64,000 nucleotides of DNA from Oscillospiraceae bacterium (GTDB lineage Bacteria > Bacillota > Clostridia > Oscillospirales > Oscillospiraceae), in contig CADBWQ010000011.1 of NCBI GenBank assembly GCA_902798545.1, positions 1-64,000 of the forward strand, written 5' to 3'. Position 1 is the stretch's first letter. The number at the start of each line of letters is the position of its first letter. Both the position numbers and the translations under genes were made by a program. The notes beneath the pieces were generated by a model that was given only the letters and a program-made list of their open reading frames with translations, was not told where the DNA came from and made no database searches. Of this stretch, positions 51,584 through 64,000 are shown one piece after another.

Positions 51584-52506
51584 AGTCTGCCCGCCTCCTT
51601 TAATAGCTTCAGAATCAGCGCCATTCGCATATACTTGCCGTAGAGAACCTGCTTGAAGTAGCAGGCCCGGGGATCATTATCAATGGCGACGCTGATCTCA
51701 TTGACGCGGGGCAGGGGATGCATGATGCAGAGATCTTCCTTTGCATTGTGAAGCTTCTCCGGAGTAAGAATGTAGCTGTCCTTCAAACGGAGATAGTCTT
51801 CCTCATTAAAGAAACGCTCGCGCTGTACGCGTGTCATATAGAGAATATCGAGCTCGGCCATGACCCCTTCCAGATCGGTGGTCTGAACATAAGAGACATT
51901 TTTTGCGGAAAGAACTTCCTTCTTTACATAACTTGGAAGCTTGAGTTCATCGGGTGAGATCAGATAGAGCTTCAAGCCGGGATAACGGGAGAGTGCACTG
52001 ATGAGAGAGTGGACCGTGCGTCCAAACTTCAAATCGCCGCAGAATCCGACCGTGAGGTTTTCAAAACCTCCTTTTTCGCGGTAGATTGTGAGCAGATCCG
52101 CGAGTGTCTGAGTAGGATGGTTGTGCCCGCCGTCACCGGCATTGATGACGGGAATGCTCGCGTTCATCGCTGCCACCAGAGGCGCGCCTTCTTTTGGGTG
52201 ACGCATGGCGATAATATCAGCGTAGCAGCTGATAACTTTTGCGGTGTCGGCGACACTCTCACCTTTGGAGGCCGAGGAACTCTGTGCCTCCGAAAAGCCG
52301 ATTACATTGCCGCCCAGTTCATACATGGCCGCTTCAAAACTGAGCCGGGTCCGGGTAGAGGGTTCAAAAAAGAGTGTGGCGAGTTTTTTGCCGCGGCAGA
52401 GCTGGCTGTATGCTTCGGGACGGGCGATGATGTCGTTTGCTGTATCAATCAGCTCCTGCAGTTCTTCCGGGGAGAAATCCAGAATATCAATCAGACTGCG
52501 AGTCAT
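51580..52506 (-). CDS. pyrB: Aspartate carbamoyltransferase catalytic chain
   Basis: Second step of UMP synthesis, carbamoyl phosphate + aspartate. The 308-residue protein carries [16 protein letters not shown], the 80s loop [49 protein letters not shown] and [11 protein letters not shown]. Normal length. Overlaps pyrE and pyrI by four bases each, so pyrE-pyrB-pyrI is a tight unit. Confidence 0.97.
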
Positions 52507-53141
52507 ACGTTCCTCCAGTTCTCATCCGAAGGATGATCACGGAAGGCAATCAGGCGCCTGACATCATCCGCCTGGATGTATCCCTCTTCGGCGGCAACCT
52601 TTGTAATAACATCAAAGTTCGTAAGGCTGTAATTTGAGACCTCTGCAGCCGCAAGACGTTCCAGGCCCTTTTTCATCCCATAGGTAAAGATACTTGCGAC
52701 GCCGAGCACTTCCGCTCCTGCATCACGCAGAACATCCACAACTTCCAGAACTGAGCCGCCTGTGGAGATGAGGTCCTCAATGACAACAACCTTTTGGCCA
52801 GGTTCAAGGCGCCCTTCAATCTGATTCTTTCTCCCGTGATCCTTGGAGCCGGAACGGACATAGCCCATCGGCAGGCCCATCAGATGAGCTGTGATGGCGG
52901 CATGCGCAATCCCGGCGGTGGAGGTGCCCATCAGCACTTCGACATCCGGATAATGCTCCTTCAGCAACTCCATAAGACCGTATTCCACATCGTTGCGTAC
53001 ATCCGGAGCGGTCAGGGTCAGACGATTGTCGCAGTAAACAGGACTCTTGATCCCGCTCGCCCAGGTGAACGGATCATCCGGACGAAAAAAGACAGCCTGT
53101 ATGCTAAGAAGATCTCTTGCGATTCGAACTTCTCTGTTCAT
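52503..53141 (-). CDS. pyrE: Orotate phosphoribosyltransferase
   Basis: Converts orotate and PRPP to OMP. The 212-residue protein shows [46 protein letters not shown] and the PRPP loop [17 protein letters not shown]. First structural gene of the operon; RBS CAGGAGG lies six bases before the ATG and just past the T-run of the second attenuator. Confidence 0.97.
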
Positions 53142-53159: not shown

Positions 53160-53207
53160 AAAAAACCCGGTTCATCCACGCAGACTGGTCTGCGTACAGA
53201 AACCGGG
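53160..53207 (-). terminator. Second attenuator: terminator overlapping the leader peptide stop
   Basis: On the minus strand CCCGGTT (from 53207) pairs with AACCGGG (to 53166), with a symmetric internal loop and an inner ACGCAG/CTGCGT stem, then TTTTTT (53165-53160). The leader stop TGA (53174-53172) lies in the descending arm, so a ribosome reaching it would keep the stem open. An upstream segment (53262-53270) could pair with the same arm (TTCATC with GATGAA, CCC with GGG). Confidence 0.9.
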
Positions 53208-53318
53208 CATATTCCAGTATAAATTTGCCATAAGGCGGGCTGAGGCCGCACAAGTGTCCCAGATGAAGGGCAGTCTCACCTCTGCGTTCGCGTTTTTGAC
53301 CCTCTGGAAAAGAATCAT
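53172..53318 (-). CDS. 48-codon pyr leader peptide
   Basis: A short ORF between two terminators in the pyrE leader. It starts with ATG eight bases after a strong GGAGG (53326-53330) and ends at TGA inside the second terminator. The product begins MILFQRVKNANAEVRL and ends TQTSLRG; it has no similarity I recognise and no signal peptide, so the act of translation is likely what matters, as for the 44-codon pyrL leader before enterobacterial pyrBI. It is not counted as a structural gene. Whether it is translated is inferred from RBS, stop position and terminator overlap. Confidence 0.7.
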   Translation of the reverse strand: MILFQRVKNANAEVRLPFIWDTCAASARLMANLYWNMPGFCTQTSLRG

Positions 53319-53330
53319 ACACTTTCCTCC

Positions 53331-53362
53331 AAAATACAAAAGCCTCACCGAAACGGCAAGGC
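53331..53362 (-). terminator. First attenuator: PyrR-type terminator
   Basis: On the minus strand GCCTTGCCG pairs with CGGTGAGGC (nine pairs, two G-U) around TTT, followed by TTTTGTATTTT. Its left arm CCTTGCCG is fully complementary to CGGCAAGG in the upstream PyrR-like site, which gives the mutually exclusive antiterminator. Confidence 0.88.
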
Positions 53363-53393
53363 CAAATGAACGGGACATTATCCCGCTGTCAAT

Positions 53394-53421
53394 CTCTTCA
53401 TCCTTGCCGATCTCTCTGGGT
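53394..53421 (-). promoter_or_regulatory. PyrR-binding RNA element (anti-antiterminator)
   Basis: On the minus strand the early transcript reads CCCAGAGAGAT then CGGCAAGGAT, close to the conserved CCAGAGAGG...AAGGAT loop of Bacillus pyr leaders bound by PyrR with UMP. CGGCAAGG (53402-53409) can instead pair with the left arm of the first terminator. The pyrR gene itself is not in the window. Match judged from memory, not aligned. Confidence 0.8.
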
Positions 53422-53439
53422 CGCCTTAAAGATGTGCTG

Positions 53440-53468
53440 ATTATATAGGCAGAATGGAGCTTTGTCAA
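53440..53468 (-). promoter_or_regulatory. Perfect consensus promoter of the pyr-pur operon
   Basis: TTGACA (53468-53463), 17-base spacer, TATAAT (53445-53440) on the minus strand, all twelve positions consensus. Transcription would start near 53433, just before the PyrR-like element, leaving a leader of about 290 bases to pyrE. The high basal strength fits control by attenuation. Confidence 0.93.
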
Positions 53469-53609: not shown

Positions 53610-54812
53610 TTACCAGGTACTGCCAGGAGCAGCGCCAAAGCTGCCGTGATTGTGCTGCCCACCTGGCCCCATTATACCACCGTCCGGCAAGCCGTTTAAG
53701 TCTCCGAAACTGTCCTGACGGCCTGCGTGCTCATACAGGGTGCTTCCGTCGGCTCCAACTGTGTCGTTGTTAAACTGACCGTCCTTTGCCATGTTTCCTC
53801 GTCCGCCCCGGCCCATTCCGCCCATCATCTGACTTGGAATCGTATCGACCTGCTGACCGTTCACAATGACTGTGCCTCCCGTGAAAGACACCTGACCGTC
53901 ACAATCAAAACTGGAACTGCCTGTGATGTCAATGGACCCGCCGGTTATAATCAGACTGCCATTGGAATCAATGCCGTCGGTATCACCGGGACCCATAGCA
54001 ATGCTGATGCTCCCGCCGTTGATTTCCACTCCCGGACTCAATGTATCAGAGTTCCAGGTGGCGTTGATGCCGTCGTCTCCGGCCTGAATGCTGACAGAAC
54101 CGCCGTTTAACAGCACATAAGTTGCTTCCATTCCTTCAGTACCCGCATTGAGGCTGAGAATACCGTCTTCTACTGTAAGGGTGTCATTGGCACTCAGCGC
54201 CTTCCGGCCGGCTGTCACGGAAAGATTTCCACCCTTGATCTTCAGGTCATCCTTGCTGACAATCCCATGTCCGTCCGGTGTGTTCACAGTGAGGCTGCCG
54301 CCTCCGCTGACAGTCAGATCGTCTTTGGAAAAGACGACTGCGTCAACATTGTTTTCATCAGTCTGTACAAAGCTTCCGGCGGTAGTGAGGGTGTTGCTGC
54401 TGCCATCGGCGAGCCTGAGTACAACCTTATCTGCAGAGACAACATAGATGGCTGCGGAATCGGGATTTGTAATTGAAACACCGTTCAGAATAAGGCGAAC
54501 CTTACTGTCGCTGTCGGTCTCGACACGCAGCTGCCCGGAAGAAAGTGATCCGCTTACATGGTAGCTGCCTGTTTCAGTGATGGTGATGCGGCTTCCGGTG
54601 ACAGTCACGGTACTGCAGTCGCTGCTGCTCCCGCTGTCGCTGAGGACAATATTGTATTCCGGAAGTGATTCCTCTTCGGGGCTGCCTGTGCTCTCTGCAC
54701 TGGCGCTGTCTTTGAACATGACAATCATCAGGGAAAAGAAAAGACAGATTGTAAAGAAATAAGGGAGCGCACGCATTGCTGTGTCCCTGAGACTGCTGAT
54801 GGACTTGAACAT
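53610..54812 (-). CDS. Secreted beta-helix carbohydrate-binding-domain protein (DUF4353-like)
   Basis: A 400-residue exported protein (hydrophobic signal about 13-32). Most of it (about 45-310) consists of imperfect beta-solenoid repeats of the type GGSLTVNTPDGHGIVSKDDLKIKGGNLSV, with many Asn, Asp and Gly at turns; known members are labelled carbohydrate-binding and often belong to CotH/VTC gene sets. The C-terminal 80 residues are Gly-, Met- and Asn-rich (MMGGMGRGGRGN...GGIMGPGGQHNHGSFG) and probably disordered. Start at 54812 follows AAAAGGAG; a GTG at 54833 lies earlier. Last of a three-gene set with DUF4956 and VTC genes. Confidence 0.82.
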   Translation of the reverse strand: MFKSISSLRDTAMRALPYFFTICLFFSLMIVMFKDSASAESTGSPEEESLPEYNIVLSDSGSSSDCSTVTVTGSRITITETGSYHVSGSLSSGQLRVETDSDSKVRLILNGVSITNPDSAAIYVVSADKVVLRLADGSSNTLTTAGSFVQTDENNVDAVVFSKDDLTVSGGGSLTVNTPDGHGIVSKDDLKIKGGNLSVTAGRKALSANDTLTVEDGILSLNAGTEGMEATYVLLNGGSVSIQAGDDGINATWNSDTLSPGVEINGGSISIAMGPGDTDGIDSNGSLIITGGSIDITGSSSFDCDGQVSFTGGTVIVNGQQVDTIPSQMMGGMGRGGRGNMAKDGQFNNDTVGADGSTLYEHAGRQDSFGDLNGLPDGGIMGPGGQHNHGSFGAAPGSTW

Positions 54813-54829
54813 GTTATAGCATCTCCTTT

Positions 54830-55513
54830 TCACAGTTCGCCGTCCTCGCTGCGGGCAGCGAGATTGATTTCAAGATTACCGTTGCGGCAGCGGAGTTCAT
54901 CGATCATTGCTTTTTCCGTACCGGCTTCGCGCATACAGATTTCATAAGTAAGACGGTTCAAAGAACCAAGATTGGTGGTTCTGACACGGACAAGCTTTGC
55001 GCCGGAAGTGTACCGCGCGAAGATGTCGTCAAACAGACTGGCGTACTCCAGGTCTTCCGGGATGGTAATCTGCAGAGTCTTTTCCTGCTCAAGCATATTC
55101 TCGGCAAAAACAAGCCTGGTGAACAGAAAGAAGACAGCACAGATGACCAGTGTGAAGACAGCTGCCAGCAGAGGAAATCCCATCCCACAGGTAAGTCCCA
55201 GGGCCATGGCGATGAAGACAGAGAGAATCTCTTTTGCACTGCCCGGTGCCGAACGGAAACGCACGAGGGAGAAGGTACCGGCTACAGCGACTCCTGCACC
55301 GATACTGCCGTTAACCATCAGGATCACAACGGCAACCACAGCGGGCAGCAGAGAAAGCGTCAGGGCAAAGCTCTTGCTGCAATGCTCCACAGAACGATAA
55401 AGAAGCGCATAGACCAGACCAAGCACCAGGGCCGAGAATGTGATAAGCAGAAAAACGGGCAACGAGACACTCAGGCTGCCGCTGTAAAGGGAAGTAAGAA
55501 TAGAATCAAGCAC
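54830..55513 (-). CDS. DUF4956 membrane protein
   Basis: About 227 residues with four hydrophobic segments in the first 130 residues (near 15-38, 52-70, 75-90, 100-130) and a soluble C-terminal domain. The segment VNGSIGAGVAVAGTFSLVRFRSAPGSAKEILSVFIAMALGLTCGMG is the DUF4956 hallmark. Genes of this family travel with VTC-type polyphosphate polymerases, exactly as here, which suggests a membrane partner for them. GTG at 55513 has AGAGG eight bases upstream; a GTG nine bases earlier sits too close to it. Confidence 0.88.
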   Translation of the reverse strand: MLDSILTSLYSGSLSVSLPVFLLITFSALVLGLVYALLYRSVEHCSKSFALTLSLLPAVVAVVILMVNGSIGAGVAVAGTFSLVRFRSAPGSAKEILSVFIAMALGLTCGMGFPLLAAVFTLVICAVFFLFTRLVFAENMLEQEKTLQITIPEDLEYASLFDDIFARYTSGAKLVRVRTTNLGSLNRLTYEICMREAGTEKAMIDELRCRNGNLEINLAARSEDGEL

Positions 55514-56222
55514 AGGAAACACCTCTTGTATTGAAATTTGTCAGCATTGCTCTGTAGGCGGAGCCGTATTTTGAAAAGCTGGTTTTGCGAATACCTGCTT
55601 CGTCAAGTGCTGAGACCAGCCACATCGGGATGGATGACGCCGTCTTGATCTCCAGGAGAGATTCTCCGGCATTCAACAGTGCATGTCCGCAGGGAAGCGC
55701 CGAAAGACTGCAGTCTTCGTTCTGCCAGAGAATGTTGCGGTCAAAGGTAATACGCAGCTCCGGATCACTGCGATCGAACCATGCGTTCCGGTCATAGTTG
55801 ATATGCGCCGCCGGTGTCAGATCCTGGTAGGAAAGGCAGAACCAGTCGATTTCCCTGCCAATCTGTGAATTCTGCGGCATGGGAATCTCCCGGCGCATGA
55901 AGGCTTCCGCCTCGCTGAGCGGGAGAGAAATCCGCCGTTTGTAAACGACGCCTTTGTATTTCTTCTTCAGTTCCAGAAAAACCGGATCGTCTTCATAAGC
56001 AGGACCGTAGCTGCGCATGCGGATTTTCTCCTTATATACAGGATGATCCAGAGAGCGGCGGACCAGCAGATAGTCCGGAGTATCATAATAGATATTGCAG
56101 ATCGTGCTCTCTCCGTGTTCATCGGGGCGCATCCTGGATTTGATTACACGCTCCAGCATAGAACGCTGCCTGCTGTTTAGTAGAAACTTCATCTCGTGGC
56201 GTTCAAAAATGGCACCTGCCAT
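55506..56222 (-). CDS. VTC-domain protein, probable polyphosphate polymerase
   Basis: A 238-residue protein with the tunnel fold of the yeast Vtc4 catalytic domain, which makes inorganic polyphosphate from ATP. Charged tunnel motifs are in order: FERHEMKFLL, IYYDTPDY, YKEKIRMRSYG, FLELKKKYKGVVYKRR, INYDRNAWF, ITFDRNI, LLEIKT and the C-terminal FSKYGSAY. No membrane helix; the DUF4956 partner, overlapping its 3' end, may anchor it. RBS GAGGTG. Upstream are two 11-bp-spaced direct repeats that could bind a response regulator. Confidence 0.9.
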   Translation of the reverse strand: MAGAIFERHEMKFLLNSRQRSMLERVIKSRMRPDEHGESTICNIYYDTPDYLLVRRSLDHPVYKEKIRMRSYGPAYEDDPVFLELKKKYKGVVYKRRISLPLSEAEAFMRREIPMPQNSQIGREIDWFCLSYQDLTPAAHINYDRNAWFDRSDPELRITFDRNILWQNEDCSLSALPCGHALLNAGESLLEIKTASSIPMWLVSALDEAGIRKTSFSKYGSAYRAMLTNFNTRGVSCA

Positions 56223-63400: not shown

Positions 63401-63655
63401 CGCATCCGGACGCTCATAGCGCAGAATCTTGGCAACATATTCCAGGGTGAGAGGCTCCATGTAGACCTTGTCTGCGATCACGGTATCGGTCATAATGGTA
63501 GCGGGATTGGAATTCACGAGAACAACTTCATATCCCTCTTCCCGCAATGCAAGGCATGCCTGTGTTCCCGCATAGTCGAACTCGGCCGCCTGACCGATCA
63601 CGATGGGACCGGAACCGATAATCAGAACTTTCTTTACATCAGTACGTTTTGCCAT
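60482..63655 (-). CDS. carB: Carbamoyl-phosphate synthase large chain
   Basis: Makes carbamoyl phosphate for pyrimidines and arginine. The 1057-residue protein has two homologous ATP-grasp halves: KVLIIGSGPIVIGQAAEFDYAGTQA and KKIVVLGAGPIRIGQGVEFDYSTVHA open them, each followed by VLVNSNPATIMTD / IINNNPETVSTD and RPAFTLGGTGGG / RPSFVLGGRAME. The C-terminal MGS domain (about 930-1057) is the allosteric site. The start overlaps pyrC by 22 bases. The glutaminase gene carA is not next to it. Confidence 0.97.
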   Translation of the reverse strand: MAKRTDVKKVLIIGSGPIVIGQAAEFDYAGTQACLALREEGYEVVLVNSNPATIMTDTVIADKVYMEPLTLEYVAKILRYERPDAIVPGIGGQTGLNLAMQLERKGILRECGTKLLGTSSSSIERAEDRELFKEMCQSIGEPVIPSEITYNLDEARAAADRIGYPVVLRPAFTLGGTGGGFANSEAELIEIGTNAFRLSPVHQVLIEKSVKGYKEIEFEVMRDSNDHAITICGMENVDPVGVHTGDSIVVAPILSLNEHDMKMLNDSALKIIRELKIEGGCNVQFALHPETSEYFLIEVNPRVSRSSALASKASGYPIARVTAKIAMGMALEEIPVAGGTAAMEPSLDYIVAKFPRFPFDKFPDAPNTLGTQMKATGEVMGIGSNLEECFLKSVRSLETGVYHLHSAKFDTWSDDELLTYIGEFRDDNIFAIIELLRRGVSVDRLHEITMITELFLESLQKIVRMEETLASHVNDIDVLREAKKMGFSDRWISKVWHLEETELYARRKKLGITPVFRMVDTLHTGKYIAYLYSSYSGVNDSRLTDKKKIVVLGAGPIRIGQGVEFDYSTVHAVQTIKRAGYEAIIINNNPETVSTDYTTGDKLYFEPLTPEDVMAIIDFEQPEGVIASLGGQTAINLAQPLMDRGVRIIGTDCAAIERAENRDSFEKILLDLNIPQPRGCAVTNIEDGVQAAAEIGYPVLVRPSFVLGGRAMEIVASEDMLRHYLKTAVEIDADKPVLVDKYIQGKEVEVDAICDGRDVFVPGIMELVERTGVHSGDSISVYPAFSISNKVKGIILQYAKKLGLGIGIVGLYNIQFIVDREENVFIIEVNPRSSRTVPFLSKSTGYSLADIATEVILGKSLKEQGIFDLYPAEKKRHYVKVPVFSWNKIKGLDAYLSPEMKSTGEAIGYDDKLSRAMYKALQASGMKLQNYGTVFVTLADEDKEEALPLVRRFYDMGFNIEATVGTATYLKEHGIRTRKRRKISEGSDEILESIRAGYVSYIINTRAIRRGAHYEDGVAIRRCATENNVTIFTSLDTVRVLLDVLEETTITVSTIDS

Positions 63656-64000
63656 GTTTCATTCTCCTTCGAAAAGATAACATTATTGCGATGAACAGTC
63701 AGCAGGCAGGTGCCACAGACAGACCAGCCGTCGAATGGTGTTGATTTGCCCATGGATAGAAACCGGGACGGATCGATGGTGCGTTTATCCTCGAGATCCC
63801 AGACGGTAAAATCTCCGTTACTCGAGATGCCGAATCGTTTCTTTGGATGGTCGGACATCAGGGAAACCAGTTGTTCAAGAGATATCATATGATTAGTGAC
63901 AAGCCTGCTGTACAGCACGGGGAAAGCAGTCTCCAAACCGACAATACCGTTCAGGCTCTTCCTGAAACCACGGCTCTTTTCTTCTGCAGAGTGAGGTGCA
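63634..64000 (-). CDS. pyrC: Dihydroorotase, C-terminal part (runs off the right edge)
   Basis: Closes carbamoyl aspartate to dihydroorotate. Only the last 121 codons are inside the window; the frame stays open to base 64000. The upstream end reads APHSAEEKSRGF and NGIVGLETAFPVLY, hallmark sequence of the amidohydrolase barrel after the last metal-binding Asp region (normally TDHAPH). The C-terminal part shows FTVWDLEDKRTIDPSRFLSMG and the STPFDGW...G segment typical of bacterial class I dihydroorotases. Its stop lies 22 bases inside carB, so the two are coupled. Confidence 0.93.
   Translation of the reverse strand, partial: APHSAEEKSRGFRKSLNGIVGLETAFPVLYSRLVTNHMISLEQLVSLMSDHPKKRFGISSNGDFTVWDLEDKRTIDPSRFLSMGKSTPFDGWSVCGTCLLTVHRNNVIFSKENETWQNVLM

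Follow-up and report, generated by a model that had tools for sequence, protein, structure and literature searches.

The pyrE leader in the window analysed here, a stretch of 64,000 nucleotides from an Oscillospiraceae bacterium, is likely to be a two-checkpoint attenuator in which a PyrR switch is followed by a ribosome-gated terminator. The strongest part of the case is an enzyme gene, pyrC, whose codons appear to spell out a terminator that was kept after the enzyme was lost. Comparison between genomes brings out the anatomy of the leader, its pyrC origin, a frame that has stayed open and selection acting on stem and U-tract. What we infer from these sequences is that transcription terminates there, that the ribosome gates the second terminator and that this checkpoint responds to polymerase-ribosome spacing, hence to nucleotide supply or translation capacity. 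The minus-strand features are listed below; all of those named in an initial annotation are at or within a few bases of where it put them.

53440..53468, minus strand: sigma-70-type promoter (TTGACA 53468-53463, 17-nt spacer, TATAAT 53445-53440)
53332..53435, minus strand: PyrR-type attenuator (Rfam RF00515, model positions 1-115, 32.2 bits, E 0.011; gathering threshold 54)
about 53434-53399, minus strand: PyrR-binding hairpin, placed on the sequence by us
53409-53402, minus strand: antiterminator strand CGGCAAGG
53331..53363, minus strand: terminator 1, with hairpin 53363-53341 and the T-rich tail TTTTGTATTTT to 53331
53326..53330, minus strand: Shine-Dalgarno sequence GGAGG of the leader ORF
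53172..53318, minus strand: 48-codon leader ORF (ATG 53318, TGA 53174-53172), homologous to the PyrC N-terminus
53160..53207, minus strand: terminator 2, with hairpin 53207-53166 (42 nt, arms CCCGGTT/AACCGGG) and T6 at 53165-53160
53151-53147, minus strand: Shine-Dalgarno sequence GGAGG of pyrE
52503..53141, minus strand: pyrE, orotate phosphoribosyltransferase (TIGR00336, 142.4 bits, over cut-off)
63634..64000, minus strand: 3' portion of this genome's uncut pyrC, which runs from G000:C11:64806 (TIGR00857, 308.8 bits, over cut-off)

The leader is placed on the minus strand between pyrE and an unrelated module of Cthe_2159-type, DUF4956 and VTC-domain genes; downstream of pyrE come pyrB, pyrI, purE and other pur genes, with pyrI and purE identified by Pfam. 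The module (53610-56222, minus strand) is itself situated between pyrF and pyrE, and the same three genes stand immediately before the leader in the window's genome (G000) and in two relatives, G094 and G071. The promoter had been called perfect, and indeed matches the TTGACA-17-TATAAT consensus at 12 of 12 positions (53468-53440). Promoter-like sites number 3 in an 801-nt stretch as compared with 0.5 in shuffles, and the leaders of relatives are likewise preceded by similar promoters, in a search for promoter and element together. Each half of the leader folds better than most shuffled sequences (z -2.1 and -2.7; for each half, 3 of 200 shuffles fold as well).

In PyrR attenuators, PyrR with UMP binds a nascent hairpin. 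The element at 53435-53332, which contains CCAGAGAG...CAAGGAT, aligns with RF00515 over the full model length, the conserved binding loop CCAGAGAG...AAGGAU lying within the alignment, and scores 32.2 bits (E 0.011 in a 461-nt stretch) where the formal cut-off is 54; Rfam at gathering thresholds returned no matches in the whole window. The PyrR hit that the initial annotation anticipated is thus full-length and falls short of gathering. When E-values up to 1 were admitted, RF00515 matched 5 of the 20 pyrC loci taken at order level (37.6-55.3 bits, a single one exceeding gathering) and 8 of 18 genus-level loci with the core pattern (33.9-43.7 bits), the other 15 and 10 loci giving no match at E 1. 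The core pattern itself has 46 sites, spread over 40 of the 102 genus genomes; its reversed control has none.

The antiterminator proposed earlier is present: CGGCAAGG (53409-53402) and CCTTGCCG (53361-53354) are exact reverse complements. Terminator 1 likewise lies where expected, at 53363-53341 followed by TTTTGTATTTT, and it is the one site reported by a simple terminator scan, which alone says little (0.9 in shuffles). A terminator was found in 52 of 58 element copies, and 44 of these 52 retain 6 or all 7 of the 7 antiterminator pairs, counts that carry no chance control and come from copies distinct by their first 150 nt only. The stem of terminator 1 varies in sequence and keeps its pairing, with 30 distinct left arms in the 52 copies. 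The window's genome carries a PyrR gene (NF003549, E 1.6e-73, over cut-off), and one is found in 81 of the 102 genus genomes, 36 of 40 with the element versus 45 of 62 without it, a weak association drawn from incomplete genomes (Fisher p 0.045). The full-length match, the higher scores of relatives and the PyrR gene together support the PyrR switch well. The window element, being below gathering, is probably a divergent member of RF00515 and not a certified one, and would work like a PyrR attenuator.

Behind terminator 1 comes the GGAGG-led ORF of 48 codons, whose stop TGA, as annotated, lies inside the second terminator, at the foot of hairpin 2. Judged by its homologues, this ORF is no dedicated leader peptide: together with terminator 2 it is the 5' end of pyrC, severed from the rest of the gene and spanning approximately its first 48 codons. 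A CCCGG...CCGGG hairpin follows the element at 46 of 46 sites in the genus. At 36 of these the element precedes an uncut pyrC, with 346 or more codons still to come after the hairpin motif, in which the counterpart of the leader ORF runs on as dihydroorotase; at the other 10 it precedes a severed copy. Just past the right edge of the window, the uncut pyrC of the window's genome is preceded by a PyrR leader of its own (64781-64933, placed by similarity). A second minus-strand frame of 59 aa, from GTG 53322 to TAA 53143, likewise stays open through hairpin 2; it ends one base before pyrE and starts only 3 nt from the Shine-Dalgarno sequence.

Severed copies stand before pyrE in six genomes (G000, G094, G071, G041, G028 and G010, in the last directly between pyrF and pyrE), before purE in G019 and G078, before pyrK in G084 and, in G023, before a pyrI remnant and guaB (both named from reading frames) in a collapsed pyr operon. 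The six pyrE copies probably share one origin; since the downstream genes differ, we infer at least three origins in all, an estimate made without a tree. The G023 locus (L141, 1540-2090) consists of a PyrR element, a pyrC start with its stop just past the hairpin, the pyrI remnant with an internal stop, and guaB, and this genome (95% complete) yielded no pyrC match at E 1e-40 and no convincing pyrE match. In G019 (L276) and G078 (L277) the PyrR-type leader and severed pyrC precede purE, purC, purF and purM, and these purine genes may be under PyrR/UMP control; G019 (85% complete) gave no pyrE or pyrC match at the thresholds used. As a separate observation, the PyrCs of G000, G071, G094, G041, G028, G010 and G044 align to the query in one piece, and the alignments of the other genus PyrCs are split in two around residues 164-172; this hints at a clade marked by an insertion or deletion at that point.

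Hairpin 2 of the window (53207-53166; dG -25.6 kcal/mol, z -6.1 against 300 dinucleotide shuffles) forms with its T6 a predicted intrinsic terminator directly before a structural gene, as in pyrBI-type attenuation. All 10 severed copies keep a counterpart, with free energies ranging from -18.5 to -25.6 kcal/mol and z from -3.7 to -6.3; their inner stems differ, and their tails have 4-7 T in 8 (weakest in G071, 4 of 8). A hairpin formed by chance in a decaying pyrC pseudogene upstream of pyrE was considered as well, given that the ORF is indeed a severed pyrC start and that the G023 copy sits in a collapsed operon. This explanation, already disfavoured, is highly improbable in the face of ten out of ten copies that retain hairpin 2 despite having been found via the PyrR element and not via the hairpin, and of the 141 out of 143 fetched genes of the same PyrC type, described below, that keep the in-gene terminator.

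The frame leading into the hairpin is maintained too. The ORF is open to the hairpin in all 10 severed leaders, versus 5 of 20 for the other two frames, and all 10 carry a GGAG-type sequence before the start codon, so that the claimed tie between the second terminator and an open frame is well supported by comparison. The start-to-hairpin distance is 105-119 nt in the 10 copies (the G010 start was chosen by hand as the second of two ATGs, the frame of the first ending 47 nt before the hairpin), and the uncut genus genes show a median of 114 (range 72-210). The initial annotation expected homologous leaders to share both the ORF and a stop inside the terminator. The former was found in every leader; the stop lies inside hairpin 2 in 6 of 10, the frames of the remaining 4 reading through to a stop beyond it, and two of them (G071, G084) overlap the following gene by an ATGA. 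On this comparison a stop inside the terminator is not a conserved feature; the putative mechanism survives, because the ribosome would cover the hairpin in the four read-through leaders too.

By contrast with frame and spacing, the severed peptide is not conserved and in three copies is frame-shifted relative to pyrC. Between the G000 and G094 leaders, substitutions are distributed 15/12/11 by codon position, and codon changes comprise 5 synonymous and 20 non-synonymous ones; a role for the peptide sequence was rejected on account of these even substitutions and the drift of the peptide. That frame and spacing persist while the peptide drifts points to translation into the hairpin as the thing kept. 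Leader peptides free of purifying selection, as these figures indicate, would suit a terminator 2 that is a fixed, unregulated partial terminator setting the expression level, the ORF being a leftover whose translation is irrelevant. We regard this as unlikely, since such a terminator would account neither for a frame open into the hairpin in 10 of 10 leaders, compared with 5 of 20 other frames, nor for a spacing of 105-119 nt that persists in copies with an unrecognisable peptide or a lost terminator 1. The latter is the case in G010, where terminator 1 is absent at its usual place and the ORF and hairpin 2 are kept; no PyrR gene was found in this genome (81% complete).

Two further candidates were rejected. 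A conserved antiterminator for hairpin 2 was looked for in the leaders and none was found: the 5' arm pairs upstream in some of them, including that of the window, strongly but inconsistently, the pairing not being alike between leaders. The middle of the leader, AACGCAGAGGTGAGACTGCCCTTCATC, was dismissed as a new riboswitch: it lies in the part derived from pyrC codons. With up to 3 mismatches in 15 bases it was found in only this leader, G094 and G071 among 111 pyrE upstream regions; the window's genome holds no other exact copy and two places with 3 mismatches, and Rfam gave no match to it. An exact pattern search in viral contigs gave no match.

The likely source of terminator 2 can be seen in the uncut gene. 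In PyrCs of the type PG..DVHVH.REPGFSY, the DNA of the two PG motifs reads CCCGG and CCGGG, with TTTTTCTTAT or a close variant after it. By one set of criteria, the terminator is present in 141 of 141 distinct motif-bearing sequences (68 from the genus, 24 from the family, 48 from the order and 1 from another part of the phylum). Drawing synonymous codons at random from the same genes would give about 41 (18.5, 6.6, 16.1 and 0.2 for the respective sets). The 141 are sequences matching the motif with PG at both arms, a count that hence favours intact arms. The family-, order- and phylum-level sets are non-random, being made up of best hits (29 new loci each) and 40 hand-chosen places. Counted over all fetched PyrCs of this type the terminator is found in 141 of 143; it is broken in G366 (L345), where the first proline is changed and the 5' arm lost, and in a genus gene of G091 (L210), where the sequence after the second PG is missing and the tail lost. 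PyrCs of other types with the motif have it in 1 of 36. Among loci L279-L376, 16 of 98 fall outside the motif, namely one of the PGFSYKET type (L345), 10 of other types and 5 in which the region was not found. In an earlier test with a fixed register, 92 of 95 genes had perfect outer arms where 32.6 were expected, and comparable positions elsewhere are rare: 5 in 108 kb of the 95 pyrC ORFs and 1 in 55 kb of 51 window ORFs.

Codon choice follows the same pattern. The first proline is CCC in 131 of 141 genes (41% elsewhere in the same ORFs) and the second CCG in 137 of 141 (44% elsewhere), and the U-tract is written with TTT in 140 of 140 (48% elsewhere), TCT in 100 of 133 (6.5%) and TAT in 121 of 128 (51%). 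Departures appear to be compensated: where both prolines are CCG, a C stands just before the first in 5 of 6 genes, as compared with 9 of the 130 genes whose first proline is CCC (p 3e-5), and where the first is CCG the second is swapped to CCC in 3 of 9 versus 1 of 131 (p 7e-4), both by Fisher tests that treat related genes as independent and therefore overstate independence. The hairpin overlaps the conserved DVHVH stretch, which we take to be metal-binding in dihydroorotases, and its arms alone could act in decay; a role other than termination (RNA processing, stability or a translation pause for the metal-site motif) would fit both points. Since the U-tract codons are biased as strongly as the arms, and copies without the protein keep stem and tail, we consider such a role improbable.

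Terminators of this kind are found well beyond the PyrR switch. Upstream sequence was sufficient for 67 genes of the genus, 24 of the family, 48 of the order and 1 other, and a PyrR-like motif stands before pyrC in 32, 3, 6 and 0 of these, respectively (1.4, 0.4, 0.4 and 0 in shuffles). Because the motif stands before only part of the terminator-bearing genes, the predicted in-gene terminator is, by this survey, the wider device, with the PyrR switch seen in part of the lineage. Put the other way round, 98 of 139 genes with the internal terminator and enough upstream sequence in the genus, family and order are without a PyrR-like motif.

How would the two checkpoints operate? When pyrimidines are plentiful, PyrR with UMP would bind the nascent hairpin and free the left arm of terminator 1, and transcription would end; without PyrR, the antiterminator CGGCAAGG/CCTTGCCG would form and RNA polymerase continue. 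A polymerase past terminator 1 would then meet an intrinsic terminator about 110 nt after the new start codon. A ribosome following closely from the GGAGG-led ATG would enter or cross hairpin 2 and block its folding; were translation to lag, transcription would end before pyrE. In an uncut pyrC, the same terminator inside the gene would gate the downstream genes.

The portion of PMC7858274 available to us reports that E. coli terminators in the first 100 nt of ORFs are approximately 100% efficient and that efficiency falls with distance, which it explains by ribosomes catching up. The drop beyond the first 100 nt would make about 110-160 nt a sensitive distance, and hairpin 2 sits just past the 100-nt zone of its ORF. 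On the other side, runaway transcription, in which ribosomes do not keep up, occurs in many low-GC Gram-positives according to the available part of PMC13323073, and counts against ribosome gating in general. Stop-to-terminator distances (n=12) did not separate the coupled from the runaway mode.

The initial annotation went further and supposed that PyrR control and pyrBI logic both act in the leader. The PyrR switch and the ORF-linked second terminator bear this out in part; a pyrBI-style UTP-sensing pause is not supported. In full pyrBI logic low UTP would slow the polymerase, the ribosome would close the gap and block terminator 2, and this checkpoint would read UTP directly. The gene class is that of E. 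coli pyrBI/pyrE attenuation, and UTP-rich pause sites are the pyrBI signature, as far as the accessible text of PMC7818426 goes. In uncut pyrC the 12 nt before the hairpin are T-rich (median 7/12 in 141 genes, a figure without a control). Between start codon and hairpin, however, the 10 severed leaders have no conserved U-rich tract (longest T run 2-5), and with this E. coli pyrBI mark not found UTP sensing is unsupported; runaway transcription, as described in the part of PMC13323073 at hand, would moreover blunt a UTP effect. Direct UTP sensing is thus possible, though doubtful, and being a special case of the two-checkpoint explanation it overlaps with it in probability.

PyrR attenuators and pyrBI/pyrE attenuators are each well known. 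The leader resembles the RF00515 attenuators of Bacillota pyr operons in its binding-loop motif, antiterminator, terminator, downstream pyr gene and PyrR gene in the genome; it differs in that the window copy scores below gathering and is directly followed by a second, unrelated attenuator, and in that the element is also found before purE in two relatives (G019 and G078). The E. coli pyrBI and pyrE attenuators have to do with the leader peptide pyrL and with rph. Common to them, in the available sections of PMC7818426, and to our leader are a pyrimidine gene, an ORF running into or through an intrinsic terminator, and no conserved antiterminator found. Unlike in E. coli, the ORF here is a severed pyrC start behind a PyrR switch, no U-rich pause tract was found, and relatives carry the terminator inside the enzyme gene itself.

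Premature termination inside E. coli ORFs is similar in that RNA 3' ends lie within ORFs, some arising from intrinsic terminators; those ends were mapped in one species, going by the part of PMC7815308 we could consult, whereas the site here is a predicted one, kept by synonymous codons across many genera and, in pyrC, severed into a leader. The B. subtilis bmrCD and vmlR leaders, as partly available accounts describe them, are likewise Gram-positive leaders in which translation controls a terminator, vmlR being tied to antibiotic challenge, unlike the pyrE leader. Alternative RNA folds are typical of ribosome-mediated attenuators of this kind; none is conserved in the leaders studied here. 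The Salmonella mgtCBR leader, also from a partial account, shares the arrangement of more than one attenuator with short ORFs; its genes are unrelated and both of its ORFs are leader ORFs, whereas one checkpoint here is of the protein-binding kind.

The initial annotation knew of no described leader combining PyrR with a translated attenuator, and we found none in the open-licence literature, where nothing relevant turned up on attenuators of pyrC, terminators within genes or PyrR combined with a translated leader. A broad terminator survey covered intergenic regions and short ORFs, according to the available text of PMC2965389, and a terminator inside an ORF would therefore escape it.

Beyond the window, we lean, with limited confidence, towards a broader view: that across many genera of one Clostridia order the codons of pyrC double as a gauge of transcription-translation coupling for the downstream genes, by means of a selected internal terminator passable only to a polymerase with a ribosome close behind, and that in some lineages a PyrR switch lies in front and the unit of promoter, PyrR switch and pyrC start has been copied or cut loose as a two-input cassette before pyrE, purE and pyrK. 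If true, protein-binding and ribosome-gated attenuators would act in series on one pyrimidine leader, and selection could keep a terminator within the coding sequence of an enzyme in many genera. Such a conserved terminator within an ORF of these Clostridia would either show coupling or mark a gene that uses its absence, and would make the coupling question testable at one defined site. Finally, severing the start of a gene that already holds an attenuator would be one route by which leader peptides arise.
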